A stretch of DNA of 64,000 nucleotides from Candidatus Zixiibacteriota bacterium (lineage in GTDB: Bacteria; Zixibacteria; MSB-5A5; GN15; FEB-12), in contig JAGNLV010000001.1 in assembly GCA_017999435.1 (NCBI GenBank), forward strand, positions 455,938 to 519,937. Direction: 5' to 3'. Shown in pieces: positions 40,201-57,942 of the stretch. The position numbers and the translations under genes were made by a program. The notes under the pieces were generated by a model. The model worked only from the letters and a program-made list of their open reading frames with translations, was not told the DNA's origin and ran no database searches. Numbering within the stretch: position 1 is the first letter of the stretch; the number at the start of each line of letters is the position of its first letter.

Positions 40201-41826
40201 TTAAAACCCCGAGCGGACTTCGATCGACAGCCGGGGCTCGCGGAAAGGGACTTCCGGATTCCACCCCAGCGCCACCGTCACGGCCCGCACTCCGTCGGTG
40301 AGCGCCACCCCGCCCCCGAATCCCGACCGATACGACTCCTCCGTTCGCCCCCCCCCGGCCGCGGACACACGGTTGCTCAGAAAGGCCCCGTCGTAGAACC
40401 CGAATGCATACCCCGCCCCGAACCGTATGCGCGGTTCGATCGTCGCCAGCACCGCCCGCAGCGCCGCGAACTGCTCGTTCCGATACCCGCGCAGCGTCCC
40501 CGGACCCCCGATCAGGTTGAGCTCGGCCGGGGGCGGAAAATCCTCGCTCGTCTCAAACCCCCGGTATCCCAGCCCGGCGCACGCCGCCAGCGGCCCCGCG
40601 ATCCGCCGGTAGACCCGGGCCTCGAACACCGTCCGCGTCTCGCCGTACTGCGTCCGCTCTCCCTCCCCGGCCGCGCCGCGCGCATACTTCCGGTGTCCAT
40701 AGCTGATCGTCGTCCGGGCCTCGAAACCGTTGGCCGGGTTCAGCGGCTCATCGACGCGGTCCCAGCGGGCGCTGAACCCCGCCGCGTACGCATCATAGGA
40801 CCGCCCTCCCTCGGCCGGCTCCACTCCGCGGTACTCCAGATCGACCCCCGCCGTTACCCCCTGCGCCAGCCGGACTGCGTATCCCGCGCGTAGCGCGAAC
40901 TCGTAAAACAACGTCCGGTAATCCCGCGTCGCCGCTTCGATCCGCCCCTCCGCCCGGCCGGCGAAGAACAGCGGCTGCAGGTAGCTCACCTGCAGGAGCC
41001 GGCGGTCCTTGTCCCGCCGCTCCGACAGAACCCGCGCCCGGCGGCCCCCGCCGAACAGGTTGTTCAGCCGCGCATCAACGTGCCACACGACCGTCGCCTC
41101 GGATGTATCGGGGATATATCCCCCACCCACATCGAGCCGGAGCGGCCGCTCTTCCACGAACTGCAGCTCCACATCCGCCGAGGTAAACCCCGGAAGCGGC
41201 CGCACGGTGGCCGGGGGAAGGAAGCGCAGCCACGGGATCTCCGCTGCCTCGCGCTCCAACCGCACGAGGTAGCGATCGGTCAGGCTGTCGCCGGCGTTCG
41301 CGGTCAGATAGCGCACTGCAGTCGCGGGCTTCGTGCGCCGTAATCCCAGGTAATGCACTTCCCCGAGCCGCATCACGGGTCCGGGGACGAGGCTCATGTA
41401 TAACATGATGTCATCGCCGGATCGCTCTATCCCGCTTATTGTTATCGAAGCATAGTAGTAGCCGCATTCGCGCCGCCGGTCCAGCAGCGAATCGATCAGG
41501 CGCGTCACCTCGGCTTCCCGAAACCACGCCTCCAATCGAAGCGCCGTGGTGTCCGCTCCGCTGATCACCGTCGCCACCCGCAACCGGGCTCGGTCCCCGG
41601 CCCGCACCCGCACCCGGCCCTCCTCCTGGCTCACCGCCGCATCCATGTAACCTTCCGTCTGCAGCATGCGCTCCAGCGAGTCCAGTGACACTGCCGGCTG
41701 GCGCGCCGCCCGCTCGACGGCGGCGGCGTTCACCGGTCGGGGCCCTTCGAACCCCGCCTCCCGGGCCGGCGAGGCGGCCGCCCCGGCCGCCAGCCAGAGC
41801 CACACCCACGCGCGCGCCATCTTCAT
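40201..41826 (-). CDS. Omp85/BamA superfamily outer-membrane protein
   Basis: A 541-residue exported protein, last of the T9SS-type operon. A signal peptide (WVWLWLAAGAAASPA) precedes POTRA-like segments (LERMLQTEGYMDAAVSQEEG, VHYLGLRRTKPATAVRYLT) and a C-terminal barrel of about 16 strands. GGPGTLRGYRNEQF is the conserved loop-6 [V/L]RGY motif of Omp85 proteins, and the chain ends in Phe. Two or three POTRA domains suit a TamA-like or small BamA-like protein, not a main BamA. It overlaps the preceding gene by one base (TGATG). It may insert the large barrels encoded beside it (inference). Confidence 0.88.
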   Translation of the reverse strand: MKMARAWVWLWLAAGAAASPAREAGFEGPRPVNAAAVERAARQPAVSLDSLERMLQTEGYMDAAVSQEEGRVRVRAGDRARLRVATVISGADTTALRLEAWFREAEVTRLIDSLLDRRRECGYYYASITISGIERSGDDIMLYMSLVPGPVMRLGEVHYLGLRRTKPATAVRYLTANAGDSLTDRYLVRLEREAAEIPWLRFLPPATVRPLPGFTSADVELQFVEERPLRLDVGGGYIPDTSEATVVWHVDARLNNLFGGGRRARVLSERRDKDRRLLQVSYLQPLFFAGRAEGRIEAATRDYRTLFYEFALRAGYAVRLAQGVTAGVDLEYRGVEPAEGGRSYDAYAAGFSARWDRVDEPLNPANGFEARTTISYGHRKYARGAAGEGERTQYGETRTVFEARVYRRIAGPLAACAGLGYRGFETSEDFPPPAELNLIGGPGTLRGYRNEQFAALRAVLATIEPRIRFGAGYAFGFYDGAFLSNRVSAAGGGRTEESYRSGFGGGVALTDGVRAVTVALGWNPEVPFREPRLSIEVRSGF

Positions 41827-44800
41827 CAGAACCCCGCCACCATTTCACCGCGGGCGGTCACCCGCGCCGTTCGATCATCCGAGTGCCGCCCGTCGATCGC
41901 CGCACTCACCCGGAAATCCTCCCGCACCCCGTAGCGGAACTCGAGCGACCAGATCGCCCCCCGGCGGCCGTACCGGCTGTCCGTGAGCGTATACGAGGGC
42001 AGCCCCGCCACTCCGCTCAGCTCCTGGCGATACAGCTCGATGGTCGAACGCACCTCCCCCCGGCTGACCACCGCCAGCCGCAGGCCTCCGCGGAGAAGGT
42101 ACTGCCGCGACTCTTCGCCGCCCGCTCCCGAGGCCCTCCGATATCCGCTCCCTCCGCTCACCTCGTGAAGGCCGATCAACTGCCGGATTGCCGCCTCGGC
42201 CTGCCAGCCCTCGATCACCCCCCCGCCGGAGTAGTAGGCATCGCGATCGGCGTCGAACAGCGTCACCGCCTCCTCGAAACTCCTCTGCCCCGCCGCCTGG
42301 CGGAAAGTCACCGTTCCCCGGCGGTCGCGGCGCTCCCGGTTGCTCCCCGCGATCGTCCGCACCTCCCGGTTCTCACTCGCCTCCACATTGACCGCGTAGG
42401 CGTTCGCGATCGGGATCAGCCGCACCTCCGCGGCGTAGCGCGAGCTGTAGAACTGGTACGCCTCGTCGGGATCGGAGTAGAACGGCAGCACCCAGAGCGC
42501 CGTGCGTTTTCCCTGCGCGAGGAGTTCCTCTTCCGTCCGCGAGGTGAACCGCACGAGCAGGCCATCCCAGTCCTTGCTGAACGAGAAGCTCTTCTCCCCC
42601 CGCGACACGGCCGCCCGGTCCGACAGGATTTCCTCCACCCGGACATAGTTCCCGTTCGGGTCGGGCACATACTGCCCGTCCTCCCACACGTAGTCCCCCC
42701 GGCCCGGTTCCACCTCGAGGTAAGACAGCCCGCGCACATTCCGCGTCTCGTCGGAGAGGAGGTAGGTCGCGGCCGCCATCACGCGCCGGCCCGGGTCGGC
42801 GTACTGGAGGTTCAGCCGCCCGAGAAACGACTCCTCCCGAGTTTCCGGCTGATCCAGCCACTGGTAGGCGGCGGTGGCCTGGTAGGCGAGTGTCCGAATG
42901 CGGCGGGTCGAGCGCAGTTCCAACCGCGTGCGCCGGAGCGCCTCACGCCAGTTCCCGGTCAGCGTGTCCTCGACATAGTGCTCCGCCTGGACCTGCTCGG
43001 TCCGCTGGCCGGCCGCCAGCCGGTAGCGCACAAACCGCGTGCCGCGGCGCGGCCCGGCGTACGAATTCGTGCGCTCGTCCCGCTCCGCTCCGGTCTCGAT
43101 CCGCCATCCCTTGCCCGCCTCATACTGCACCCCGCCGTCGATCGTCCGCGCCGCGCCGTCCGAGCGCCGGCCGGCGCCCACCACCGTCGTCGTCGCCGAC
43201 CGGACGCCCCCCGCGACCTCCACGCCGCGCCCCGGCCGCACCGTCGCCCGCATCCCTCCGCTCTCCGCCTCGGTCCCGTCGTCGCAGCGGACCAGCGACC
43301 CGCTCGGCGCGAGCGTCACCGCCTCGGCGGGACTGAAACTCGCCGTGCCCTCGTGCCGCCACTCGTCCGATGCCGGCTCGTAGTCGTCCGGCAGGTGGTT
43401 TCGGCGATTGAACTCCGGTTCGTAGAGGCGCTCGCGCGTACGGAAGGTCCCCTCGCGAAAGCGCGACTGCAGGGTGATCCCGTCTCCGCGCCCCGGCTCT
43501 CCCCATGGCCGCGCGTAACCCAGCGCCCAGAGATTCCCCCCGTTGTCGCCGTCCCCCCGCGGGCTGAAGAGATTGCGGTCCTGCTCGCTGCGGCGGTACT
43601 CGGCGGTCACCTCGCCGAGAGCGCGGTCCCGCCATCGCCCCCGCGCGACATACTGGTCGGTCCGCTCCGGCGCCGCCAGCGCCACCACCGGGAGATAGTC
43701 CCCGTTCCCCGCGCCCGCATAGAGAAACCGGTTTCCGCCCAGGTTCCGATAGGCGCCGTCCCCAGCCCCGACATAGCTGAACGTCACCGTGTAATCCCCC
43801 TCCCCCGCCCCGACGTACTGGTAGACGCTGTCGGGGAGGCTGTCGGCCACCAGCACGTAGGCCCCCGCCGTATCCGGCCGCACGCCCGACCGGTAGGCCG
43901 GCGCGGCGCTGTCGCCCGCCGCCTCCAGAATCGCCCGGTCGCTCTCGGAGAGTTCTCCGCCGAGGGGCGACCCGCGGTCGTCGCCCTCCCGCAGCCAGCC
44001 GGTCTCCAGGACGAAGGTCGAATCGCCGAGCGCCGCCCCGCCCCCCCCGCTGTACACCTCCTCCCGGTAATCGGTCGCCTGCACCTCGTAGTCGATTTCG
44101 ATCCGTCGGCGGCGGTCGATCGGATGGTTCACGTTGAACGTGATCGACCCCGCGGGATAATCCATCGTGTAGTCGTTGTTGCTTCCCCGGGCGAGCTTCT
44201 CGCCGTCGAGCCAGACCGTCTCGGATCCCGGGACGATCGGCTGCGCCCGCGGGCCGATCCGGTAGGGGCCCTGGACCCCGTCCTCGCCCGGGAACCGCGC
44301 CGTTTGGTGCAGCCCCTTGGGCCGGGCCGCCGCCGTTTCGACATACCACCGGGGCTCGCGCACCGTCACCGACGCGCCGCTCACCCGCGCCGTCCGCCCC
44401 TGGAGCGCCGCCAGGCGGTGCCGCAGTTCGATGTCGCCGACCCGCGCGAGGAAGCGCGCCGACTCCAGTTCCAGGTTGATTTTGTTCAGCTCGTTCAGAC
44501 GGCTGTTCACCGTCCCGTACGCCGCGTCATAGCCGCGGTCCGAGACCGCTCCGCGGATCATCAGCCCGGGCGTGAGTTCCCCCGCCACGGTCACGTCAAG
44601 CGACTGGCTGAAATCCGCCGTCCCCGCCGACCGCGCCGCAAACCGGAACGATTTCGCTCCCGAGAGCGCCAGCCCGCCGGAGGCTTTCCGGGGAGCGGTC
44701 CGCCGCGGCGGCTCGAGCGCGGGTGTTCCCCCGCCCGGCGGCACAATCTCCGGCAGGGGCCGGCCGTAGCGGGCGGCCAGCCATGACGGCGCCGGCGCAT

Positions 44801-45059
44801 AGGTGAGCACGAGCGTGTCCCCCGGCTGGGCGTGCAGGTCCGACAGATCGAACCCCCGGCGCCCTGCATCGAACCGGTACTCCCGCCCGGCCGCCAGCAG
44901 CCGCCCGTTGAAAAACAGTGAATCGGATCCTGAGATCACGAGACGCGATCCGGTCGGGTACCAGCGCGGGATCGCTTCTCCCACCAGCGTCACCCGCGCC
45001 GCCGCCAGCGGCAGCGCCGCCGTACACCAGAGGAAAACCGCCAGGGTGACTCGTGGCAT
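41826..45059 (-). CDS. Large outer-membrane beta-barrel protein with SprA-like module and GAGxGDY repeats
   Basis: A 1077-residue exported protein with signal peptide (LAVFLWCTAALPLAAA). Residues about 275-345 carry VPGSETVWLDGEKLARGSNN, DYTMDYPAGSITFNVNHPID and RIEIDYEVQATDYREEVYSG, closely patterned on the SprA module GSExxxxxGxxLxRGxDY..DYxxGxI..IxIDYE. An upstream part (ARFLARVGDIELRHRLAALQ) also resembles such proteins. Residues about 420-475 contain three GAGxGDY/AY repeats. The remaining 600 residues are long antiparallel strands ending in VAGF. It may be a second translocon-like barrel or a large envelope receptor. No named family is assigned. It lies between an NHL lipoprotein and Omp85. 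Confidence 0.8.
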   Translation of the reverse strand: MPRVTLAVFLWCTAALPLAAARVTLVGEAIPRWYPTGSRLVISGSDSLFFNGRLLAAGREYRFDAGRRGFDLSDLHAQPGDTLVLTYAPAPSWLAARYGRPLPEIVPPGGGTPALEPPRRTAPRKASGGLALSGAKSFRFAARSAGTADFSQSLDVTVAGELTPGLMIRGAVSDRGYDAAYGTVNSRLNELNKINLELESARFLARVGDIELRHRLAALQGRTARVSGASVTVREPRWYVETAAARPKGLHQTARFPGEDGVQGPYRIGPRAQPIVPGSETVWLDGEKLARGSNNDYTMDYPAGSITFNVNHPIDRRRRIEIDYEVQATDYREEVYSGGGGAALGDSTFVLETGWLREGDDRGSPLGGELSESDRAILEAAGDSAAPAYRSGVRPDTAGAYVLVADSLPDSVYQYVGAGEGDYTVTFSYVGAGDGAYRNLGGNRFLYAGAGNGDYLPVVALAAPERTDQYVARGRWRDRALGEVTAEYRRSEQDRNLFSPRGDGDNGGNLWALGYARPWGEPGRGDGITLQSRFREGTFRTRERLYEPEFNRRNHLPDDYEPASDEWRHEGTASFSPAEAVTLAPSGSLVRCDDGTEAESGGMRATVRPGRGVEVAGGVRSATTTVVGAGRRSDGAARTIDGGVQYEAGKGWRIETGAERDERTNSYAGPRRGTRFVRYRLAAGQRTEQVQAEHYVEDTLTGNWREALRRTRLELRSTRRIRTLAYQATAAYQWLDQPETREESFLGRLNLQYADPGRRVMAAATYLLSDETRNVRGLSYLEVEPGRGDYVWEDGQYVPDPNGNYVRVEEILSDRAAVSRGEKSFSFSKDWDGLLVRFTSRTEEELLAQGKRTALWVLPFYSDPDEAYQFYSSRYAAEVRLIPIANAYAVNVEASENREVRTIAGSNRERRDRRGTVTFRQAAGQRSFEEAVTLFDADRDAYYSGGGVIEGWQAEAAIRQLIGLHEVSGGSGYRRASGAGGEESRQYLLRGGLRLAVVSRGEVRSTIELYRQELSGVAGLPSYTLTDSRYGRRGAIWSLEFRYGVREDFRVSAAIDGRHSDDRTARVTARGEMVAGF

Positions 45060-45080: not shown

Positions 45081-46034
45081 CTACCCGGCGTCGCTGATCA
45101 CCCGGCAGACCAGCAGGCGGTTGTTCCCCGTGTCGGCGATCAGCAGCCGCCCGTCGGCGAGCACCGCCAGGTCCGAGGGCTCGCGCAGCGGCGAGTCGCT
45201 GCCCGGCAGCATCGGCCCGGCCGCGAACAGAATCCCGCCCCGCGCGTCGCAGAAGTACACCCGCCCCGCGCCGTCGAGCACCCACAATCCTCCCCCGGCC
45301 GGTGCCGCCGCCTTCGGCCGCGCCCACGCGTCGTGCGCGATCGTCCGCACCATCGTGCCGTACCGGTCGTACACGACCACCCGCCCGTTCCCGCCGTCAC
45401 ACACATAGTACCGCCCGGCGCCGTCCGCCCGGATCCCCTGCGGCTCCCGCACCTGTCCCCCCGCGTAGCCGAAATCGCCGACGAACCGGTCGAACGCCCC
45501 CGTGTTCGTGAACACCGCGATCCGGTTGCGCTGGCGGTCTCCCGCCCACAGCTCGCCGTGCGCGCTGACCGCCACCCCGCCCGGCTCCCCGAATTGCAGC
45601 GGGTCGTCGGCATTGTAGAACTCGGTCGCGTCCACGAACAGGAGGTCCGAATTGAAGCGCGAGATCCGCTGGTTCCCCTCGTCGGCCACCCACACATTGA
45701 GCTGGTTGTCGACCGCTGCGTAACCCGGACGGCTGAGCAGACCCGCCTCGCTCCCCGCCCCGCCCGCATCGCGGATCGGTTGAAGAGCCCGGCTGAATTT
45801 GATGATGCGGTTGTTCCCCCGGTCGACGCAGTAGACATTGTCGTCCGTTCCCGCCGCCAGTCCCCAGGGGCTCTGCAGCGGGAGGCCGAGCACCTCTCCG
45901 GCGATCACCTGCTCGACAATCACTCCCGCCGGCGCCGGCGGGGCCGCGGTTTCATCCCCGGCCCCTCCCGGCCCCCCGCACGAGAGCGCGATAGCCGCCG
46001 CCGCTGCACCTACGCTGACCGCGCCTGCCCGCAT
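45081..46034 (-). CDS. NHL-repeat beta-propeller lipoprotein
   Basis: A 317-residue lipoprotein (signal ending AAAIALSC). ATG 46034 is preceded by AGGCGGAG. Five or six NHL blades are readable, for example SPWGLAAGTDDNVYCVDRGN, NNRIIKFSRALQPIRDAGGA, NVWVADEGNQRISRFNSD, REPQGIRADGAGRYYVCDGG and DLAVLADGRLLIADTGNNRL. Such propellers act as docking platforms on the cell surface or in the periplasm. Its place in the PorU/PorV operon suggests a structural subunit of the export or attachment apparatus (inference). Confidence 0.88.
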   Translation of the reverse strand: MRAGAVSVGAAAAAIALSCGGPGGAGDETAAPPAPAGVIVEQVIAGEVLGLPLQSPWGLAAGTDDNVYCVDRGNNRIIKFSRALQPIRDAGGAGSEAGLLSRPGYAAVDNQLNVWVADEGNQRISRFNSDLLFVDATEFYNADDPLQFGEPGGVAVSAHGELWAGDRQRNRIAVFTNTGAFDRFVGDFGYAGGQVREPQGIRADGAGRYYVCDGGNGRVVVYDRYGTMVRTIAHDAWARPKAAAPAGGGLWVLDGAGRVYFCDARGGILFAAGPMLPGSDSPLREPSDLAVLADGRLLIADTGNNRLLVCRVISDAG

Positions 46035-46041
46035 ACTCCGC

Positions 46042-46863
46042 CTAAAACCCCGGGTACACCGTGAGCGCCACCTGGCGGGTCGGGGATGTCGGATGGAATT
46101 CCAGATCATAGCGCACTCCCCCGATCGTCCAGCCCTCGTCGACCACCCGGTTGGCCCGGCGCGCATCCAGCACCGCGTCGATCACCGCCACCACCCGGTT
46201 GATCACGGCCGCCCACAGCATCCAGTCCCCCCGCCGGTATGCCTCCCGGCTCGAATTCTTCAGGCTGCGGAAGGTCTCCCGCTCGGCGTCGCTGGGCCAC
46301 ACCCAGTGGTATTCCGGCACATCCGGCAGGTAGCGCCGGTCCGGGTCCCCCACCCGCCCCGCCCTGTTGAAATCGTCAATGCTGTCGTAGAACCCCACCC
46401 AGTCGAGATACTGGTCGCTCTTCCCCTCCAATTGCGCGTTGGCATGGACGGCCGCGTAGGCGATCAGGTCGTCCTTCTTCCAGTCGCCGTAGAGCCGGAA
46501 CGCCCCGAAAGCGACCCAGGTGAGTCCCTCGGCGGCGAAGAAGCAGCGCGCTTTGATGTCGCGGTCGTTGTAGAGCTGCCCCAGCCCCGGCACGAGCGCC
46601 GACAGGGCCGCCGCCTTGACCGGCGACTTCTTCTTCCCCTCCTGCGGCCGGTTCTCCTTCGGCGCCGGCGTCAGAGTCCCGTCGTCCTCCCATTCGGTGA
46701 CCGCCGCGGTCGGCCGCCAGGCGAGTCCGTCCGCCCGGATCTGCGTGGCGAGACTTGTCTGCACGGGCGCCGGCCGTACCCCCGCCGCCCCGACCGCGGC
46801 CGCGCAGACCGCCCCCCCCGCCACCAGACCGATTCCCAATGCTATCGCAACCCGAATTCTCAT
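46042..46863 (-). CDS. DUF5683-like exported membrane protein (copy 2)
   Basis: A 273-residue protein with an N-terminal signal or anchor (VAIALGIGLVAGGAVCAAAV). The core GKKKSPVKAAALSALVPGLG followed by QLYNDRDIKARCFFAAEGLT matches the DUF5683 signature, in which a short hydrophobic hairpin follows the SPVKA...VPGxGQxY motif. A further helix (MLWAAVINRVVAVIDAVLDA) and a C-terminal beta segment follow. DUF5683 proteins are common in T9SS-bearing Bacteroidota, function unknown. It is paired head to tail with a paralogue 13 nt upstream. Confidence 0.8.
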   Translation of the reverse strand: MRIRVAIALGIGLVAGGAVCAAAVGAAGVRPAPVQTSLATQIRADGLAWRPTAAVTEWEDDGTLTPAPKENRPQEGKKKSPVKAAALSALVPGLGQLYNDRDIKARCFFAAEGLTWVAFGAFRLYGDWKKDDLIAYAAVHANAQLEGKSDQYLDWVGFYDSIDDFNRAGRVGDPDRRYLPDVPEYHWVWPSDAERETFRSLKNSSREAYRRGDWMLWAAVINRVVAVIDAVLDARRANRVVDEGWTIGGVRYDLEFHPTSPTRQVALTVYPGF

Positions 46864-47806: not shown

Positions 47807-50800
47807 TTACTTCAGCACCGCGATGTCGGTGAACGCCGTCTCCGTCTCCCCGCCGAAATCAACTTCGATCCGGCACCGGTAGACGCCCGGCGTCACCTTC
47901 CCGCAGACCCACTCCAGTTCGTTGTCGACTCCGCCCGCCGTCGGCCCCTGCAGCGCCGCCACCTCGGTGCCGGACAGATCATAGATCGTCAGCCCCACCG
48001 AGCGCGCCGCGCGTCCGAGAAAATACCGGATCGTCGTCCGCCCTTCCGTCACCGGGTTGGGGTAGTTGTAGAACCGCTTCCCGTCGAATCCCGCCGCGTA
48101 CTGCCTCGGCTCGCCGAGTTTGGAACCGTCGAGCGCGAATGATCCGGCCGGATCCGCTCCCGCCATCGGCCAGTAATTCCGCACGCTGTCGAGATTGGTG
48201 TGCCACAGGTAGAACCAGCCGTCGAGGCCGAGGTACCCGAGCTTCCCGCCGAGCGAGTCGTGCACCACCAGCGGCGACCCGATACAGAATTCGCCGGCCG
48301 AAAGCGGGAACCCGGTCGCCGCGCGGTCGCCATAGGCATAAATATTCCCCGGCTCCGTCGGCGCGATCACCTCCGGCCGCCCCCCCCGCTGAATGTCGCC
48401 GACCACCGGGGCCGCGATCACCTCCGCCTCCGGGAACCGGTCGTCAAGTTCTTTCGGGAAATCCGCCAGCAGCGTGAGCTGCCGGTCGAACGCGGCCACC
48501 TGGTTCACGCCGCCGACCACCAGGTCGGGATAGCCGTCGTCATCCATGTCCGCCGCCGCCGGGTTGGCCCTCACGCTCAGCCCGGTGCGCTTCTGCGCTT
48601 TCACCTCCAGCGCCGCCGGCGACACGGTGGTGTCGACCGCGATCAGAATCGCATCCCCCTCCGCGGAAAAGCCCGCCGCCTCCGGCACGCCGTCCCGGTC
48701 GACATCCGCCAGCACCGGCCCGAACCGGTAGTGGCCGTCGACCGTGAGCGCATTGCTGGCCCCGGTCGAGTCGATGGCGTGCCAGACCGTGTGCGTCTCA
48801 TCGCCGCCGACCAGCACGAGCCCGCTCCCCGCCCGGCAGATACCGTGGTACTCGTCCATCGGAAACGACCCCAGCTCGATTGCCGAATCCATCAAAGAAG
48901 ACCTGCGGTAGACGTGTCCCTCGCTGGTCAGCACCCACAAGACGTCGCCAAAAGCTAACGCCGCCGGGAAACCTCGACCATTCGTCGCGAAACCGGCAGC
49001 AGATACAGCTAGGCCATTCTGATCGAAGTCCGTAGCACGATAGATGATTACATTGCCGTTCCTGCCCAATGAATCCGACTCTCTTCGGTACCCTACTGCT
49101 ATATGGAGCGTGTCATTCAGATTCCCGAAAGCGCCGGCAACCGGCCCGGCCGAAAGGACTTGCCCTGACTGGGCCGTCGCGAACACCGGCACCGGATAGG
49201 GCCGCCCCGGATGCACTCTCGCCTTGGCCGAGTCAAAAAACAGCTCGTCCGAGGTGCCGAAAAACTTGTGGAAATATCCCTCCCCGTCCGTCGTGAACGC
49301 CACCACCCGCTTGCCCGCCGCCGCGATGATCTCGTCGGTCCCGTCCCCGTTGAGATCCGCCGCGATCGGCGACAACGGCAGCGTCGACTCCCCGACCCGC
49401 ACCGGGAACCCGGCCACGAGATTCTCCGTCTCCACGTCGAACAGCATGAGCGAATCACGCACGACGATCGATGCCCCGAGGGTGTCGATCTTGCGCGTGA
49501 TCCCCGTGATCCGGATGTGGGTGTTGTTGCCCGTGTTGTCGATCGTCGGCGGGTTCGTGTTCGGCGTGAACGACCGGTTGCGGTCGTCCCGGTACATGTC
49601 GGCCGCCGCGCCCCACCCCGCCCGGTAGTAGCCGCCGAAATTGACGATCCCGTCCCCCTCCACCAGCGAAATGAACCGCCGCGCCGGATCCCACTGGAGC
49701 TGGTTGTCGTCGAAATTGTTCACCCCGTCCCCGTCGTAGTCGAGTCCGGCGACGCTCTCGTCGACGTGGTAGATGAGCATGCCCGAGCCTGGCAGGAGGA
49801 AGTCGTACTCGCGGGTGAACTCCCCCGCCACCGTGTCCCCCTGGGGCGTAATGATCACCTGGACCGGCCCCTGGAGCACGCCGGTCGCCGTGTCCTGCTT
49901 CTGCCCCGTCGGCAGCCCGTCGTACTCGATGATCCGGTTCTCCAGCAGGTAGTATTCCTTTTCGGTGATGGGGATGCGCGCCACCTTGATCCCCTCCTGC
50001 ACCATCTGCGCCGCCGCCAGCGGGATCCTCGTGCCCTCGCGGAAGTCGTAGACCTGGACATACCCGAGGTAGGCCCGCGACCAGGCGCAGGGGTAGAGCG
50101 GCATCGTCCCGTAGACGCCGCCGACCGGCAGCCCGAAATCGACCGTCGTCCCGAACCCGTTGTTGTCCATGAGCGCGAAATCCCCCAGCTGCGACATGAA
50201 GGTCGCCGTGCTGTACAGGTCGACCAGCCCGAGCTGGTGCCCGAACTCGTGCGCCAGGACCGCGTTCATCGTCGTCGCCCGGTTGTCCTGGTTGACCGTC
50301 TCCGGCATCAGCAGCGCCGTCTTCACCCAGTTCGCCCCCTCGTCCACCGCCAGCGAATCCCCGAACAGGATGAACCCCGTGAACAGGTCGCTGCACGTGT
50401 AGGGCACGCCGACCGAGTTCGGCCCGAAATCATTCTGCCGGTCGCTCCCGGCGTGGAACATGAAGATCGCGTCGTAGCGGCCGAAGTCGATCTCCGGCGA
50501 CACCGTGTCGGCCAGCCGGATCCCGTCGATGAAATACCGCTCGAGGCCGGCGATCACGCTGTCGAAATCGCACTGCCCGTAGTAGCTCATCGGGTGCGGC
50601 AGCTCGTAGACCGAGTCCCGCGCCGGCGGGTAGATGTCCCAGGCCAGCGTGATCGCGCTGTCGGACACGACCTCCCAGTAGCGCGCCAGGGCCCGCAGGT
50701 GGGCGTCGAAATACGCCGAATCGTGCGGCGGCGGATCGACCAGGTTGCCGGCGTCGCCGAAATAGGTCGGGTTGGCGGCCGAGTCCGCCTCCGGTCCGCG

Positions 50801-51133
50801 GATCAGCATGCGGCCGCGCCCGCTCGTGTGCGGATCGTCCGTCGCTTCATACTGAAAATTGAATCGGAGCACGAGGCAGCGCACGGTGTCGGCGAAATCG
50901 GCCGCCCGCGCCTGCTTCGGCAGCGACCACGGGTGTTCGCGCTCCAGCCCCCGGTCGGCCGCCCGGTTCCGCGGCGGCGTGAGGCAGCGATGGTGCACCC
51001 GGTTCTCGCCCGCCGCCGTCTCCCCCGGGTGCTGCACGTTGCGGATTCCCAGCAGGCCGTCGCCGGCGGCCACCGCCGCCGGCACGAGCACCGCCGCTAG
51101 CGCCAATCGACCGAGACGTCCTATCTCTCTCAC
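47807..51133 (-). CDS. M6 family metalloprotease with FG-GAP-like repeats and T9SS sorting domain
   Basis: About 1108 residues. An N-terminal signal is present (RLALAAVLVPAAVAAG). The zinc site HEFGHQLGLVD (His295, Glu296, His299, with the metzincin-like extended D) identifies immune-inhibitor-A/M6 peptidases. FG-GAP/VCBS-type repeats follow (AADLNGDGTDEIIAAAGKRV, AADMDDDGYPDLVVGGVNQ), forming a propeller. Residues about 1015-1108 (YNYPNPVTEGRTTIRYF ... GVYRCRIEV ... VLK) are a T9SS type A sorting domain. GTG 51133 is used; the upstream TTG 51169 would overlap the preceding gene. The gene sits directly after the PorV-like gene, so a cargo protease is co-expressed with its export machinery. 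Confidence 0.9.
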   Translation of the reverse strand: MREIGRLGRLALAAVLVPAAVAAGDGLLGIRNVQHPGETAAGENRVHHRCLTPPRNRAADRGLEREHPWSLPKQARAADFADTVRCLVLRFNFQYEATDDPHTSGRGRMLIRGPEADSAANPTYFGDAGNLVDPPPHDSAYFDAHLRALARYWEVVSDSAITLAWDIYPPARDSVYELPHPMSYYGQCDFDSVIAGLERYFIDGIRLADTVSPEIDFGRYDAIFMFHAGSDRQNDFGPNSVGVPYTCSDLFTGFILFGDSLAVDEGANWVKTALLMPETVNQDNRATTMNAVLAHEFGHQLGLVDLYSTATFMSQLGDFALMDNNGFGTTVDFGLPVGGVYGTMPLYPCAWSRAYLGYVQVYDFREGTRIPLAAAQMVQEGIKVARIPITEKEYYLLENRIIEYDGLPTGQKQDTATGVLQGPVQVIITPQGDTVAGEFTREYDFLLPGSGMLIYHVDESVAGLDYDGDGVNNFDDNQLQWDPARRFISLVEGDGIVNFGGYYRAGWGAAADMYRDDRNRSFTPNTNPPTIDNTGNNTHIRITGITRKIDTLGASIVVRDSLMLFDVETENLVAGFPVRVGESTLPLSPIAADLNGDGTDEIIAAAGKRVVAFTTDGEGYFHKFFGTSDELFFDSAKARVHPGRPYPVPVFATAQSGQVLSAGPVAGAFGNLNDTLHIAVGYRRESDSLGRNGNVIIYRATDFDQNGLAVSAAGFATNGRGFPAALAFGDVLWVLTSEGHVYRRSSLMDSAIELGSFPMDEYHGICRAGSGLVLVGGDETHTVWHAIDSTGASNALTVDGHYRFGPVLADVDRDGVPEAAGFSAEGDAILIAVDTTVSPAALEVKAQKRTGLSVRANPAAADMDDDGYPDLVVGGVNQVAAFDRQLTLLADFPKELDDRFPEAEVIAAPVVGDIQRGGRPEVIAPTEPGNIYAYGDRAATGFPLSAGEFCIGSPLVVHDSLGGKLGYLGLDGWFYLWHTNLDSVRNYWPMAGADPAGSFALDGSKLGEPRQYAAGFDGKRFYNYPNPVTEGRTTIRYFLGRAARSVGLTIYDLSGTEVAALQGPTAGGVDNELEWVCGKVTPGVYRCRIEVDFGGETETAFTDIAVLK

Positions 51134-51158
51134 AACCGCCTGACTTTCCCTGGCCCGC

Positions 51159-53921
51159 TTACGGCACAATCGACAGCGAGAACCGCAGCGTGTTATCCAG
51201 AACCGATTCCTTGCTGCTCGGAATATACGAAAAATCCGCCCGCAGCCAATCCAGCGGTTTCAGCCCCGCCCCCAGCGTCACCGCCTTCACCTGCCCTTCC
51301 TGGTCGTAGATGTACCCGGCCCGGCCGGCGATGAGGTTGGCGTAGGAGAACTCCACGCCGCCGTTGAATATCGCGCTGGAAATCTCGTCCTTGACCGACG
51401 ACAGGTCGATCCCCACCAGCATCTTGTTCATCTCCGCCGTCACCAGGAACGTGTAGTAGTCGGTGTGGAGGACCTTGTAGGCGAGCCCGACCGCGAGGTT
51501 GCGCGGCAGCGGGTCGGCCTGGGCCGCGTCGATATAGATCACGTCCGGACCGAGGTTGGTGATCGCCAACCCGATATTCAGCCGCGGCGTCCACTGGTAC
51601 AGAAGACCGAGATCCGCCGCCACCCCCGTCGAGGTCCCCGAACCCTTCTCCTTCTCGGTCCCGACATCCGACAGGTGCGAGTGGATCAGCTTCGCACTCA
51701 CCCCCACTTTCAGCTTCTGCGACACCGGGAACCCAAACGACCCGGTCACCGCCACGTCGAACGAGCGGAACGACCCGATCACCTGGCCGAGCGAGTTCGT
51801 GTTGGTGATCTCCCCGTAGGTCAGGTAGGTCACGTTGAACCCGGCCGTGCCGACATCCCCCACCTGGAAGACGCCGGCGATGAAATCGTAGTACATGTCG
51901 CTGGCCAGTTCCGGCAGCCAGTTCACGTGCATGAGCGAGAACTCTTTCCGGCCGTTGGCCTTGATCACGATCTCCCGGTCGCTGGCCAGCCACAGCTCAT
52001 CCTCCACCGCGTCCATGTAGATCGTGTTCGCTTCCCCCATCCCTTTCTCGTCGATCCGCTGGACCCGCCCGTCCTCCAGTACGCGCAGCCCCTCGGCGGT
52101 CGCGAAATAGACGCTCGCGCCGCGCTGCCGCACCAGGTTCACCTTCGCCGCCAGGGCGTTCTGCGGAATCCGGATCGCCGCGCCGGAGTCCACCGTCGAT
52201 TCGATCCCGTTGACCTCCCGGATCGCCAAGAGATACCGCTCCCGGGCCTCGCCGTTGGTCGCCGCCCGCTGGCCCAGGACATCCTCGACCGTCTGGTTCT
52301 GCGGCGCCGTGTACTCGCTCCACCCCGGCATCCGCCACTTCTCGCCGTCGAAATACAGCAACCCGAAGTCGGTCCCGAGGAACAGCTCGTCCTGCCGCGC
52401 CGCGATGCTGTTCACGTTTCCTTTGATCTCCACCGCGAAGGGGAGAATGAGCACGTCCCCGGGGGGCAGATTCGCCCAGTCCGGCTCGCCGCCGCTCTCG
52501 GCCGCCGGAGCCTCCTCTGCCGTCGCGGCCTCGCCCGCCGCGGCCGTCTCCGCCGCCGGCGCCGCGCTGTCGGCCGCTGCCGTGTCTGCCGCCATCTCGG
52601 CCAGTTTAGTGATATCGAGCGGCTCCCCCTGGGCCGGCGCCGCGGCCGCCGCCGCGGCCGGCGCCTGCGGGCCCCGCGGGTTCAGCTCCTTGATCAGATC
52701 GACGAGCGACTGGCGCTCCGAGGCCGTCCCGTAGAGCGCAAAGCGCTCCGCAATCTTCTCCAGCGTGTCGCCAACCGCAATCGTGTAGGCCCGGCCCCGG
52801 CTCCACGAGGCGCCGTCATACCGGTACAGCTTGCCGTCGATCACCGCCCACACGCGCGACGTGCCGTCGGCCCCGATCGCCGAGACGTAGCCCGCCGGGA
52901 GAGTGCCGGTCGTGTCGACGGCCGCGATATCGCGCCCCGTGAACATCACCAGCCCCTCCGCCGTCCCCACGAAGAACTGCGCGCCGCTCGCGTGCAGCGA
53001 CCGGATTTCATCTGAGGGCAGCCCGTCCTTTTCCGTGAACGTCCGCCAGCTCTTTCCGTCGTAGGTGAACAGTCCTTCCGAGGTTCCCACGACGAGGAGC
53101 TTCTCCTTGGCCGCAATCGCGGTCGGCTCGCCGTCGAACACCACCGTGTAGGGAATCGTGACCTCTTCCGGGATAAAGCGCATGCGGGCGCGTTCGATGG
53201 CGACGCTCAGCTTGTCCGCCTCGCCGCTCGAGAGCGCGCCGTCATCCAGCCCGTCGCGGAGCGCCTTGCGCGCCTCCTGGACGTTCGGCCAGCGCAGCCG
53301 TACCTCGTCGTAGGCCGTCATCACCGAGTCGAGCCGCTGGGTCAGGAACTCGGTGTCGCGGTACCCTTCGGGGAGCGCGGCCAGGATGCTGTCCCGCAGC
53401 AGGGCCAGTTCCTCGCGCGACATCTCGGCGTTGGCCCGCGCGACCCGCGCCACCATCTGGTTGAGCAGGTCCTCGTCCTGCACCTTGAAGTAGCTGGCCA
53501 CGATGCCGCGCACGGTCTGGTCGGTCCGGGTGCTGAACTCTTCGCCCGTGTGCCAGGCCCGGTTGTCGAACCGCACCAGCCCTTTCGGGCCCGAAATCGC
53601 CCAGATCTCGTAGGCCGTATAGTCCGAGCCGCCGCCCTGCTTGACCGCCGCGATCGCCTTCAGCGGCAGCAGGTCCGCGGGCACGCGGGCCACCGTCCAG
53701 CCGTCCGCCAGCGGATACGCCCCGAGGCCGGCCGGGTTCCAGTGCGTCGTCGTCGCGTCGTCTGCAACCGCCACGAACGCCTCGCCCATGCCCGCCGCCC
53801 GCGCTCCGGGCGCGATGCGCAGAAACAGCACGGCGGCGTTCGAAATCTCCGCCCTGCTGTCGGATGCACCGAGCACCGCCGCCGCCACCAGACCGAAAAG
53901 GACTCCAAGTTTCCTGACCAT
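51159..53921 (-). CDS. porV: PorV/PorQ family outer-membrane protein with inserted propeller and LysM-like module
   Basis: A 920-residue protein. After a signal peptide, residues 25-70 match PorV/PorQ (FLRIAPGARAAGMGEAFVAV, ADDATTTHWNPAGLGAYPLA). The rest of the FadL-like barrel resumes at about residue 661 (LMHVNWLPELASDMYYDFIA) and runs to the end. Between them lie a helical stretch, two-component-regulator-type propeller blades (LLVVGTSEGLFTYDGKSWRT, FFVGTAEGLVMFTG) and a LysM-like motif (YTIAVGDTLEKIAERFALYG). An Ala-rich linker (417-485), more blades, and a second LysM-like stretch near 545-590 follow. PorV carries cargo from SprA to PorU. ATG 53921 follows AGGAG. Confidence 0.88.
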   Translation of the reverse strand: MVRKLGVLFGLVAAAVLGASDSRAEISNAAVLFLRIAPGARAAGMGEAFVAVADDATTTHWNPAGLGAYPLADGWTVARVPADLLPLKAIAAVKQGGGSDYTAYEIWAISGPKGLVRFDNRAWHTGEEFSTRTDQTVRGIVASYFKVQDEDLLNQMVARVARANAEMSREELALLRDSILAALPEGYRDTEFLTQRLDSVMTAYDEVRLRWPNVQEARKALRDGLDDGALSSGEADKLSVAIERARMRFIPEEVTIPYTVVFDGEPTAIAAKEKLLVVGTSEGLFTYDGKSWRTFTEKDGLPSDEIRSLHASGAQFFVGTAEGLVMFTGRDIAAVDTTGTLPAGYVSAIGADGTSRVWAVIDGKLYRYDGASWSRGRAYTIAVGDTLEKIAERFALYGTASERQSLVDLIKELNPRGPQAPAAAAAAAPAQGEPLDITKLAEMAADTAAADSAAPAAETAAAGEAATAEEAPAAESGGEPDWANLPPGDVLILPFAVEIKGNVNSIAARQDELFLGTDFGLLYFDGEKWRMPGWSEYTAPQNQTVEDVLGQRAATNGEARERYLLAIREVNGIESTVDSGAAIRIPQNALAAKVNLVRQRGASVYFATAEGLRVLEDGRVQRIDEKGMGEANTIYMDAVEDELWLASDREIVIKANGRKEFSLMHVNWLPELASDMYYDFIAGVFQVGDVGTAGFNVTYLTYGEITNTNSLGQVIGSFRSFDVAVTGSFGFPVSQKLKVGVSAKLIHSHLSDVGTEKEKGSGTSTGVAADLGLLYQWTPRLNIGLAITNLGPDVIYIDAAQADPLPRNLAVGLAYKVLHTDYYTFLVTAEMNKMLVGIDLSSVKDEISSAIFNGGVEFSYANLIAGRAGYIYDQEGQVKAVTLGAGLKPLDWLRADFSYIPSSKESVLDNTLRFSLSIVP

Positions 53922-53942: not shown

Positions 53943-56900
53943 TTAATTCACCACTACTACTTTGCCGAACGTCTCCACCGCCGCCCCGCCCCGCGGGTAG
54001 GCCGTGGCCTTGTATACGTACACGCCGGTGGCCACCCGGTCCCCGGCAAAATCGGTCCCATACCATTCTATATCGTCATAGTAGCCCGGATCTGTCGGGA
54101 ACTCCTCATGCACCCAAATCCGCCGCCCCGCCAGGGTGAAAATCTCCAGGCAGACCCGCTCCACGGCCGTCGTCAACCGGTAGTAAAACCGGGTCCGCTC
54201 CCGCATCGGGTTGGGGTAGTTGAGCAGGTCGACCAGCGCCGGCCCCCCGGCCGCCGCCACCGTCGCCGTGAACGCCGCCGTCGCCGAATTGTTGGCGTTG
54301 TCCCACGCCTTGATCTTGAACGTGTGCCGCCCCGGCGACAGCCCCGCCAGCGGGTACTCCAACTGCCCCCGCGTATAATCGTCCTGGTCGCAGGCAAACC
54401 GGTCCGTCAGGTCCGCCATCGTCTCCGACCGGTCGTCCAGCACCAGCGTAATGCCGTGCCCCAAACCGCCGGTGAGGTTGATCCCCGAGGAATCCGCCAG
54501 CGTCACCCGGAGAACGTCGTCCGTGGCCACCGTCCCGCCGTCGCTGAAACCAACCGAGTGGACAAACCCGTAGGCGATCTCCGGCCCGGTCTCGTCGCGG
54601 TGCGTCGTGTCCACCGCCGCCGCAATCGAGAGCGAGTCGATCACCCCGACCCCGTCCGTCCCCGCCAGCTCGGCGTAGGTCATGATCTGCGCCCCCGTTC
54701 CGCCGTAGCCGACATCGAGCGGCGTGACGAAGGCGAATTCGAATTCGCCGCTGCGGATCGTCGCCGTGCCCCGGTAGATCGCGGGGCCGGTCAGGCGGTA
54801 GGACACCACGTTCCCGCTCGCCAGCCGGTACTGCCGCTCGCGCTCCGAATCGTAGGCTTCGATGACGAGCCGGCCGTCGGCCGCCACCGGCCGTCCCTCC
54901 CGATCCAGCACCCGCCCGGCGATCGTCGACCGCCCCAGGGCCACGAGACTGTCGGGCGGATTGTCAAACGCGATCCGCAGCCTCGGCAGACCGAGCCGCA
55001 CGAGGGGATCGCCGAAATACTCGTAACACCGGTCGTTGAGAATCTCGTAGGGTACGCTCCCCCCGTTGTACTGCCGCTCGAGTTTTCCCATGTACAGCGC
55101 CTCGGCGATCGTGAGACTGTCCGTAGTCAGGAGAAGGTCGAACACTTTCTGATTCAGGTCGGCGTTCTGCGTCGACCATACTTCGCGCATCGCCGAAATC
55201 ACCGCGATGCCCCCGCCGTTCGGGTAGACGACCAGTTCCTCCGCCATCGCCTCGCGCGCCGGATCATCGAATGCCCCGATCGCGCACGAGGCCGCGAAAA
55301 ACAGCGGCAGCCGGTCGGAGTTGCTCAGCCGGGGGATGTCGCGGTCCCGCCAGAACACGTGTTCGTGCGCCCACACGTCCGGGTTCCCGTGGCCGATGTA
55401 ATCCACGACCACCGCCCCCTCGTTGATCTGGCGCACAATCGCGTCGTTGGCCCCCGGCTTCTCCCGCCCGACCCGCGGAAAATCGTACAGATAGATCTTC
55501 TTCTGGTGGAGCGTCCGGGGCACGTGCCCCGCGAGCAGTTCCTCCGCCTGCTCCACGTGGAACGTCTCGCTCGTCTGATTGTCGGCGACCTCATCGTCGG
55601 CCACCACCGTAATCACCGACCGCCACAGGCCGAGCGCCGCGCTGGTCTCGTAGCGGCGGCTCTTCTCCACGATCGTCGCGATCTCCCCCGCCGTCTGCAC
55701 CGGCCAGCGCGCCACCATCATGTCCAGCCCGCGGTCCCCGACCAAAATGTAGCTCGTATCCGAATCGAGTATGCCGTACCGTCCGAAATAGACGTAGTTG
55801 TCGTCCGCCGCCGACCGGTCGTCCGGCCGGATATACGGCGGCACCACGTTCGGCACTCCCGTTCCCAGGGCATTGGTGTAGTCGAAACTGCCGTCCCCCG
55901 CCAGCAGCACCGTGTGCGGCGGCGGCGACGGATAGTTCTCGTAGGCGTACTTCAGGTAGTCCCGGATCGCGGTCGGATCGTACATCCCGAAGCTGAAATT
56001 CTCCATGATGTCCTCGACCGCGACCACCCGGCTTGAGATCCCCCGGCCGGCCGCCCGCTCCACGTACTCGGCCAGGGCCGGGACCAGTTGTCTCGAGGTC
56101 ACGATGATCATGTCGGTCTGCTCGCCGATCGCGTACAGGTCGGCCGGGGTGCTCCGCTCGATTCCCAGGGGGCCGAAGGCGCCGGCCGTTTCGGCCAGGT
56201 AGAATCGGTTCGGTCCCTCGCCGGCCAGCGCCGCGGTGAAGGCAATCGTGCCCGCCGCGCGCGTGTACCCGGCCAGCCGCACCGGCCGGCCCGGGTCGTC
56301 CAGCCGGAGAACCGCCAGGTCCCCGCTGAAATTATCGACCGCCTCCAGCCGCGCCGTCCCTTCGAACCCGCCGAGCGGCACGTCGAGCACCCCGCCCAGC
56401 GGCGCGAGGAAACTCTGGTAGGTCAGCTCCACGTAGTCCAGGTAGGGGAGCACGCCGTCCGCCCCCCACATGGTGAGATTCACCGTGTTGAGCCCATCGG
56501 TGAGATTGTCCACCCGGAAACTGCAGTGGAACTGGTTCTGGTAATTCGGGGCCGCGGCCGCGCCGTTGACCCGCGCCGTCACGTAGCCGATCTCCGGGGA
56601 GACGTCGGGATCGCGCGTCGAGGCCCGGCAGTACAGTTGCGCCGAGGTTCCGGGCGCCGGCCCGACGCTCGGCGCCGACAGTTGCACCGTCGGCCCGGTC
56701 GTCCAGTACCAGATGTAGTAATCGTCGATCGCCCCGCCGGCGTCCTCCTTCAGCAGGTTGTCCTGCTCCAGATGCATTACCCGGGTGAAAGTCGTGATCG
56801 TGGTGTCCGCGGGCGCCGAGGGATCGACCGTCTCCGTGGCCATCCGCACCCCCTGCCCCTCCCGGACCGTCAGCCAGTACACATTCTTCGTCTCGTAGGG

Positions 56901-57788
56901 ATTGTTTTCCCAGAACGGCGCGGTGGCCGGCGCGTAGACCCAGCGGTCCCCGGCGTCGGCGAAAAAGAGGATCGCGTCGGCCGCATCGAACCGCCCGTCC
57001 CCGCCGTCGTCGACCGTGATCGCCGCCTGGCGGAACTCCGGCCGGGGCGTCGCGTTGTTCAGCGGCAGCCGCCGTCCCCCGGCGTTGAACAAACAGAGCG
57101 CGTCGGAGGCCAGCCCGCTCAGTTCCAGCCCCGCCTGCTGCAACTGGCTCCCCGTCACCCGGCACAGCCCGGTGCGGTTCACCGTGATTTTGTACCACGT
57201 CTCCCCCGCGGCAAACGGTCCCGGAGCGGCCGCCTTCGTCTTCAGCGCCTCGGGCGCCGGCCAGGTGCGGAACTCCCGGTAATTGACCACCCGCTCCCCG
57301 AACACCCGGTCGAACCACGGATCCCGGGGCGCCGCCCCCTCCATCAGCCCGCCCCGGAAAGTGAGGCGCACATCGATCGAATCGGCACATCCCCCGTCGG
57401 GCCCGGCCGGGTTCACCCGCACCGTCACCATCTGCCGCCCGCGTACCGTGAACGGTTCCGACACCTCAACCAGCGGCCGCGCCTGCCTCGACATCTTCCG
57501 CCCGTCCGTAAGGCGCACCGGGCGAACTGACCGGCTGTGCGCGTCCGCGGATGCCAACTCCACCTCCGCCCCGAACGGTACCCCAACCATCAACAGCCGG
57601 TAGTACCCGGGCAGGGAATCCGCCTCCACGGCCGACTCCAGCCGTTCCGGATCGACCGTCACCACCGCATGGAGCCCGGTCCGGTCCGAATAGACCAGAT
57701 TGACGCCGTCGGCCGAGGCCGCGACGGGCAGACTCAAAATGAGGGCAAACGTGCTCAGGAGGAGCAATCTATACAGCCGAATGTCCAT
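53943..57788 (-). CDS. porU: PorU-like C25 (gingipain family) peptidase, T9SS sortase candidate
   Basis: A 1281-residue exported protein, first of the operon. A signal peptide (YRLLLLSTFALILSLPVAAS) precedes beta domains, then a C25 peptidase domain (about 545-925). The catalytic pair is His800 (VVDYIGHGN) and Cys835 (FFAASCAIGAFDDP), spaced as in gingipains. Downstream Ig-like domains and a C-terminal sorting domain (LLNYPNPMRERTRFYY ... GVYVYKA) match PorU, which removes cargo sorting tails and attaches them to surface lipid. A secreted C25 protease is the alternative, but position beside porV favours PorU. Start ATG 57788 (GTG 57827 possible). A hairpin occupies the expected ribosome site. 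Confidence 0.88.
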   Translation of the reverse strand: MDIRLYRLLLLSTFALILSLPVAASADGVNLVYSDRTGLHAVVTVDPERLESAVEADSLPGYYRLLMVGVPFGAEVELASADAHSRSVRPVRLTDGRKMSRQARPLVEVSEPFTVRGRQMVTVRVNPAGPDGGCADSIDVRLTFRGGLMEGAAPRDPWFDRVFGERVVNYREFRTWPAPEALKTKAAAPGPFAAGETWYKITVNRTGLCRVTGSQLQQAGLELSGLASDALCLFNAGGRRLPLNNATPRPEFRQAAITVDDGGDGRFDAADAILFFADAGDRWVYAPATAPFWENNPYETKNVYWLTVREGQGVRMATETVDPSAPADTTITTFTRVMHLEQDNLLKEDAGGAIDDYYIWYWTTGPTVQLSAPSVGPAPGTSAQLYCRASTRDPDVSPEIGYVTARVNGAAAAPNYQNQFHCSFRVDNLTDGLNTVNLTMWGADGVLPYLDYVELTYQSFLAPLGGVLDVPLGGFEGTARLEAVDNFSGDLAVLRLDDPGRPVRLAGYTRAAGTIAFTAALAGEGPNRFYLAETAGAFGPLGIERSTPADLYAIGEQTDMIIVTSRQLVPALAEYVERAAGRGISSRVVAVEDIMENFSFGMYDPTAIRDYLKYAYENYPSPPPHTVLLAGDGSFDYTNALGTGVPNVVPPYIRPDDRSAADDNYVYFGRYGILDSDTSYILVGDRGLDMMVARWPVQTAGEIATIVEKSRRYETSAALGLWRSVITVVADDEVADNQTSETFHVEQAEELLAGHVPRTLHQKKIYLYDFPRVGREKPGANDAIVRQINEGAVVVDYIGHGNPDVWAHEHVFWRDRDIPRLSNSDRLPLFFAASCAIGAFDDPAREAMAEELVVYPNGGGIAVISAMREVWSTQNADLNQKVFDLLLTTDSLTIAEALYMGKLERQYNGGSVPYEILNDRCYEYFGDPLVRLGLPRLRIAFDNPPDSLVALGRSTIAGRVLDREGRPVAADGRLVIEAYDSERERQYRLASGNVVSYRLTGPAIYRGTATIRSGEFEFAFVTPLDVGYGGTGAQIMTYAELAGTDGVGVIDSLSIAAAVDTTHRDETGPEIAYGFVHSVGFSDGGTVATDDVLRVTLADSSGINLTGGLGHGITLVLDDRSETMADLTDRFACDQDDYTRGQLEYPLAGLSPGRHTFKIKAWDNANNSATAAFTATVAAAGGPALVDLLNYPNPMRERTRFYYRLTTAVERVCLEIFTLAGRRIWVHEEFPTDPGYYDDIEWYGTDFAGDRVATGVYVYKATAYPRGGAAVETFGKVVVVN

Positions 57789-57794
57789 AGCCAA

Positions 57795-57810
57795 CCGGGC
57801 GTACACCCGG
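57795..57810 (-). promoter_or_regulatory. Hairpin just upstream of the porU-like start codon
   Basis: In the mRNA, CCGGGUG pairs with CGCCCGG (one G-U) around a UA loop, ending seven bases before ATG 57788. It occupies the position where a Shine-Dalgarno sequence would sit, and none is otherwise visible. It could hold translation low; if GTG 57827 is the true start the hairpin is coding. Confidence 0.4.
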
Positions 57811-57942
57811 CCCTGGAACCGAAGCACTTCGAACTACGGTCTGCGGGCCTTAACGCAATTGCACCGATCCAAATTGAGTTAACTTAAACCTTCAGTAACC
57901 GTAGGTCGATAGTCGCTCCTCCACAGCTGTATAAATCGTTTA

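Follow-up and report, generated by a model that had tools for sequence, protein, structure and literature searches.

Background

The closest described system for the locus analysed here is SprA, or Sov, the type IX translocon (TIGR04189; PDB 6h3i, 8gl6), whose barrel consists of 36 strands (PMC12611786). So far SprA has been regarded as a giant barrel without parallel. Among open-licence papers, none was found on type IX secretion in Zixibacteria, and none that describes another family of the SprA type.

The barrel gene and its relation to SprA

The window, i.e. the whole stretch of 64,000 nucleotides that was analysed, contains both an SprA gene and a gene for a second giant barrel protein of 1077 residues. 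The features of the two proteins, in window coordinates, are the following:

5508-11639, minus strand: SprA, 2043 aa (TIGR04189, 593 bits)
9570..9791, minus strand: SprA copy of the shared module, SprA residues 617-690 (profile comparison)
41826..45059, minus strand: giant barrel protein, SprA-related, not an SprA equivalog (ORF of 1077 aa; weak TIGR04189 match)
44997..45059, minus strand: Sec signal peptide of the barrel protein, residues 1-21, MPRVTLAVFLWCTAALPLAAA (by inspection)
44766..44996, minus strand: first copy of the SprA module (residues 22-98), preceding the barrel (hhalign)
44289..44672, minus strand: barrel strands 1-7, residues 130-257 (hhalign against SprA)
44070..44228, minus strand: SprA module copy 2, containing the motif noticed earlier, residues 278-330 of the loop that joins strands 7 and 8 (hhalign, topology)
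43665..43964, minus strand: insert on the extracellular side between strands 9 and 10 (residues 366-465), carrying three G.GDY motifs (alignment, AF2 model)
42648..42713, minus strand: conserved GDY hairpin, residues 783-804, in the loop after strand 25 (bits per column)
41832..44069, minus strand: rest of the barrel (residues 331-1076), comprising strands 8-38 and their loops (AF2 model, strand count)

A TIGR04189 scan of the genome found the SprA at 5508-11639 as the sole one; the remark of an earlier note on this DNA, that SprA homologues are normally single, is thus true of genuine SprA in the present genome. The 1077-aa protein scores 20.6 bits against TIGR04189 (22.9 in the genome scan), where the curated cut-off is 200, and is therefore not an SprA. 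In a single-sequence hmmscan its match (E = 5e-5) joins residues 271-328 to model positions 600-655, and a weak match to the same model is also present in 14 of 21 members of the barrel family. Whole-protein searches against Pfam, PHROGs and PDB sequences returned nothing useful; the family is covered by no Pfam family, its NCBIfam match is the weak SprA one only, and no relatives were found in the viral contigs searched. It is filed here as a second giant-barrel family beside SprA.

A first comparison of the family profile with the SprA profile gave a probability of 92.6%, and hhalign located the similarity in a module that is present twice in the barrel protein. Copy 1 (residues about 20-110) aligns with SprA 604-681 at P 97.7-98.6% and E 2e-12 to 1e-15, copy 2 (residues 262-345) with SprA 617-690 at P 97-98% and E 2e-11 to 2e-14. 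With a broader profile built from 40 SprA sequences, the match of copy 2 takes in the transmembrane hairpin that follows it (about 270-374 against SprA 617-722; P about 98%, E 7e-13 to 6e-16). The motif that the earlier note had read as common to SprA and the 1077-aa protein, at residues 275-345, is thereby confirmed (probability near 98%, E no higher than 7e-13): the HMM-HMM comparison that it had proposed was run and the similarity is significant. Its placement needs one addition, the second copy at about residues 22-98 (P 98%). Searched over the whole genome, the module profile matches SprA and the 1077-aa protein only; among solved structures its best match is Flavobacterium johnsoniae SprA (696-743, E 3.4e-6), which is not fully independent, since the profile used in that run contained zixibacterial SprA rows. 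A weak match of SprA residues 612-673 to phage tail-tube families (NF052337, E 0.0024; phrog_807, E 0.0011) was also observed, and may hint at the fold of the module.

Similarity to SprA extends beyond the module. Residues 125-264 of the barrel protein, comprising strands 1-7, align with SprA 162-312 at P 61-85% and E 8e-5 to 6e-6 when the broader profile is used, P having been 10.7% with an earlier, smaller SprA profile. This alignment scores 40.6; none of 40 column shuffles exceeded 17.8, and the reversed profile gave 12.3. The block of strands 1-7 and the block of module 2 are collinear in the two proteins, SprA having about 300 additional residues between them. For residues 470-1077 the similarity to SprA does not reach significance (P 1.8%), the weak match obtained, to SprA 1359-2041, being nevertheless in collinear position. 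At the level of sequence profiles, common ancestry with SprA is well supported for the N-terminal third of the barrel protein; for the whole barrel it is likely rather than demonstrated. The suggestion of a shared plug-domain family was right as to common ancestry and too narrow as to its extent, because module 2 with its hairpin and strands 1-7 match in order, which is more than a plug.

A different origin can be considered, in which only a mobile module would be common to the two proteins and the two barrels would have arisen separately. It would agree with the high significance reached by the module only, with the unmatched residues 470-1077 and with the duplication of the module inside the barrel protein. 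However, it has to contend with the ordered match of strands 1-7 and of the hairpin after module 2, and with a score that no shuffle approached, and is considered unlikely.

Predicted structure and conservation

The AlphaFold2 model of the barrel protein, computed from 64 sequences, has a mean pLDDT of 85.9 and a pTM of 0.74 and contains 38 long strands, an even number. A krumholzibacterial orthologue, 21% identical, was modelled with a pLDDT of 82.1 and again with 38 strands, as counted from the element list of the model, and its inserts are found at the same places. The periplasmic turns of the barrel model are all of 8 residues or fewer and the long loops are all located on the opposite side; the alternation of residue types along the strands is greater than in all of 2000 shuffles. 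The predicted models suggest the closed, antiparallel arrangement with short turns on one side that characterizes large transmembrane beta-barrels. In an ideal circular barrel, 38 strands correspond to a diameter of about 66-75 Å. A barrel too small for a pore, against which the earlier note had set its size check, is not what was predicted; the note's description of the barrel as smaller holds for the length of the chain, but not for the predicted strands, which are 38 versus 36 in SprA.

Fold searches are consistent with this picture. The top match among those listed for the first model is the FimD usher (Z 17.9, 367 residues aligned). Porins and AlgE, the alginate exporter, come at about Z 16 over 260-290 residues, and SprA (8gl6_A) at Z 15.2 with an rmsd of 8.6, its 607 aligned residues extending from position 128 to position 1077 of the model; for the second model, that of the orthologue, SprA is not among the 50 matches listed. 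Closed porins align across both chain ends of both barrel models. Since ushers and porins match with Z scores as high or higher, the fold search alone is no proof of kinship with SprA; what it supports, for the predicted models, is a large closed barrel.

Conservation within the family, computed as bits per column on a set thinned to less than 60% identity, peaks at 2.75 in module 2; next come the hairpin that follows strand 25 with 2.71, the loop preceding module 2 with 2.52 and the G.GDY insert with 2.2-2.4, as against 1.35 in strands 14-24. The working part of the barrel is probably represented by these extracellular-side inserts.

The Omp85 gene and the cluster

On the same strand, the barrel gene is followed by an Omp85-superfamily gene and preceded by a group of genes that includes components of the type IX system:

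40201..41826, minus strand: Omp85-superfamily protein, 541 aa (PF01103, 34.2 bits, cut-off 24)
45081..46166, minus strand: NHL-propeller protein, upstream neighbour of the barrel (PF01436)
46042-46863 and 46877-47797, minus strand: two DUF5683 genes (PF18935)
47807..51169, minus strand: protein similar to M6-family proteases, carrying a weak T9SS sorting tail (NF052323, 255 bits; TIGR03296; TIGR04183)
51159..53921, minus strand: PorV-family protein of 920 aa that contains a long internal insertion (NF033709, 232 bits)
53943..57827, minus strand: PorU sortase (NF033707, 638 bits)

Of 20 zixibacterial loci, nearly all have the order PorU-PorV-M6-DUF5683-DUF5683-NHL-barrel-Omp85-UbiA, and a looser version of it is found in Krumholzibacteria, Fermentibacteria and Hyd24-12. 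The earlier note had placed the barrel gene beside PorU and PorV; they do share strand and cluster, but four genes separate PorV from the barrel. In two loci (L053 and L105) barrel and Omp85 genes are adjacent though the type IX genes are elsewhere. Barrel loci of Rhodothermia, Ignavibacteria, WOR-3 and Cloacimonadota have mixed housekeeping neighbours, with no common function and no type IX link.

Some members of the cluster have features of their own. In the PorV-family protein, PorV-type matches at 17-66 and 655-918 are separated by about 590 residues inserted near the start of its barrel, in which LysM is weakly matched at 379-414; the zixibacterial relatives are of similar length to its 920 aa, those from Krumholzibacteria and Hyd24-12 of 331-382 aa. 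The best NCBIfam match of the M6 protein is to an "inactivated" M6-like family (NF052323, 255 of 600 bits, below the cut-off), and its HEFGHQLGLVD zinc-site motif is intact. The genome (G000) contains 51 type IX sorting tails together with SprA, PorU and PorV and gave no match to GldM (TIGR03517); hence, its type IX motor may be very divergent or different.

The stop codon of the barrel gene and the start codon of the Omp85 gene overlap in the sequence TGATG. Members of the Omp85 superfamily have a C-terminal barrel domain and preceding POTRA domains; none of the latter was called by Pfam in the copy encoded in the window, and three POTRA hits are present in the orthologue from locus L053, on which this part of the assignment is based. 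An Omp85 gene lies directly downstream of the barrel in all 66 zixibacterial loci with enough sequence to be testable, a count drawn from two overlapping collections in which some genomes appear twice, and in 71 of 83 loci overall. It follows the barrel gene directly, usually with an overlap, in Zixibacteria, Krumholzibacteria, Fermentibacteria and Hyd24-12. The remaining 12 loci, from Rhodothermia, Ignavibacteria, WOR-3 and Cloacimonadota, have no adjacent Omp85 gene, and therefore a dedicated Omp85 protein is not needed everywhere.

Ten genomes that are at least 90% complete have no barrel according to a sensitive profile, the residual matches being to the module within SprA. The Omp85 orthologue is also absent from all ten: their best Omp85 scores are at most 99 bits, on other, mostly longer Omp85 proteins, as against at least 550 for true partners. 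SprA and PorU are kept in all of them. In seven readable loci the barrel-Omp85 pair is cleanly missing from an otherwise intact cluster. As the ten genomes fall in four families, the pair seems to have been lost several times separately. Three less complete genomes (G004, G005 and G055) have an Omp85 orthologue with no barrel; there the contig begins at or just before the Omp85 gene, so the pairing is not contradicted. This Omp85 partner, which had escaped the first reading of the DNA, is probably the more telling fact about the locus.

Two other genes were considered as parts of the unit and rejected. The NHL gene is no third fixed partner, since in loci without the pair it is kept in three of seven (L211, L214 and L218) and missing in four. 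UbiA, the gene after Omp85, remains where the pair is absent.

Distribution of the family and co-occurrence with SprA

Among 79 relatives the barrel is found in 65 and SprA in 77. Full-length relatives of the barrel, of 1030-1320 residues, are also present in Krumholzibacteria, Fermentibacteria, Hyd24-12, WOR-3, Ignavibacteria, Rhodothermia and Cloacimonadota; in these distant groups 18 of 19 barrel-bearing genomes have SprA above the cut-off, the exception being a Fermentibacteraceae MAG. Some Rhodothermia genomes and one WOR-3 genome (G082, G087, G088 and G094, the sources of loci L119, L126, L127 and L134) encode two module-bearing proteins of about 1150-1360 aa, and the barrel family may have been duplicated in them.

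An SprA equivalog is expected to be present whenever a type IX system is, and the barrel does not follow this rule. A role as a replacement for SprA is rejected, as the two co-occur. Indeed, since barrel and Omp85 can be missing while SprA, PorU and the cluster are kept, the pair is an accessory and not a substitute translocon.

Proposed function

The reading preferred here, to which a probability of about 0.5 can be given, is that the protein is a capped giant outer-membrane conduit, an SprA paralogue with a dedicated Omp85 assembly partner, acting as an accessory of the type IX locus. The barrel protein would be exported via Sec, and the Omp85 protein encoded by the overlapping gene would probably help to fold and insert it. 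Four elements would probably cap or gate the wide lumen: module copy 1 at the N terminus, copy 2 between strands 7 and 8, the G.GDY insert, and the hairpin that follows strand 25. The pair may then pass something across, or hold something on, the surface built by PorU, PorV and the cargo, with the core type IX system able to operate without it. This reading starts from computed results, namely the similarity to the SprA profile, the predicted strand count, the position in the operon, the strict pairing with Omp85 and the joint absence of the pair with type IX genes kept. Its parts differ in strength: capping or gating by the inserts is the most plausible of them, a dedicated assembly role for the Omp85 protein is slightly favoured, and for a conduit function of the barrel the odds are about even.

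An alternative, in line with the translocon proposed in the earlier note, is that the barrel moves a subset of CTD-bearing type IX cargo in parallel with SprA, perhaps the M6 protein of the cluster. The common ancestry with SprA, which includes the first barrel strands, the site among PorU, PorV and a cargo gene and the width of the predicted barrel would all suit such a role. Conversely, M6, PorU and PorV are retained in genomes without the barrel, and so is SprA. The proposal is thus not supported for a replacement of SprA, which is kept in the ten barrel-less genomes, and survives as a second translocon for special cargo, with a low probability.

A similarly doubtful possibility is a surface anchor or receptor, a non-conducting barrel that would hold secreted proteins or glycan by means of its conserved extracellular modules. 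There is a precedent in the PorP-like barrels, which are described as anchors of type B CTD cargo (PMC9143113), and conservation is concentrated in the predicted extracellular inserts and not in the strands; however, 38 strands are far more than an anchor requires and no particular cargo gene is tied to the barrel. An export or assembly port for lipid or polysaccharide, similar to LptD or AlgE, in a cluster that builds the cell surface is the least probable explanation, since porins and AlgE, which rank with the best structural matches here, would be expected to match any barrel, and the UbiA gene next after Omp85 remains without the pair and hence is not tied to it.

Returning to the capped conduit with its Omp85 partner, a wider and more tentative proposal is that a second SprA-type lineage of 38 strands could serve as a gated port for large polymers in many FCB phyla, built in several of them by an Omp85 protein with a single client. 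A second family that shares ancestry with SprA, with a chain half as long and a higher predicted strand count, would make the giant barrels a superfamily and make it easier to separate the parts of SprA that make the pore from those specific to type IX secretion. If always gained or lost together, the barrel and Omp85 genes would provide an unusually clean natural case of a one-client assembly factor, which bears on the insertion of very large barrels. The cluster is moreover a starting point for studying type IX secretion in bacteria other than Bacteroidota.

Comparison with known systems

The chaperone-usher pore FimD, the top structural match listed for the first model, is like the barrel protein in being a large barrel with domains inserted between strands. 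The FimD pore has 24 strands; no sequence relation with it was found, and no pilus genes are near the barrel gene. The Omp85 partner resembles BamA, TamA and FhaC in its PF01103 match, in an invariant LRGYR-type motif of the family alignment and in the POTRA domains of its orthologue. It differs from them in that its gene overlaps one particular barrel gene and is absent together with it; the genome also encodes separate, longer Omp85 proteins.

The nearest system is SprA. Both are giant single-chain outer-membrane barrels with an FCB distribution and PorU and PorV as neighbours, they have the module in common, and their first barrel strands match in order. Unlike SprA, the barrel protein is half as long, is predicted to have 38 strands instead of 36, carries the module in two copies, and reaches 20.6 bits against a cut-off of 200, with a C-terminal half that has no significant sequence similarity. 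Moreover, it is dispensable where SprA is kept, and it is paired with an Omp85 protein.
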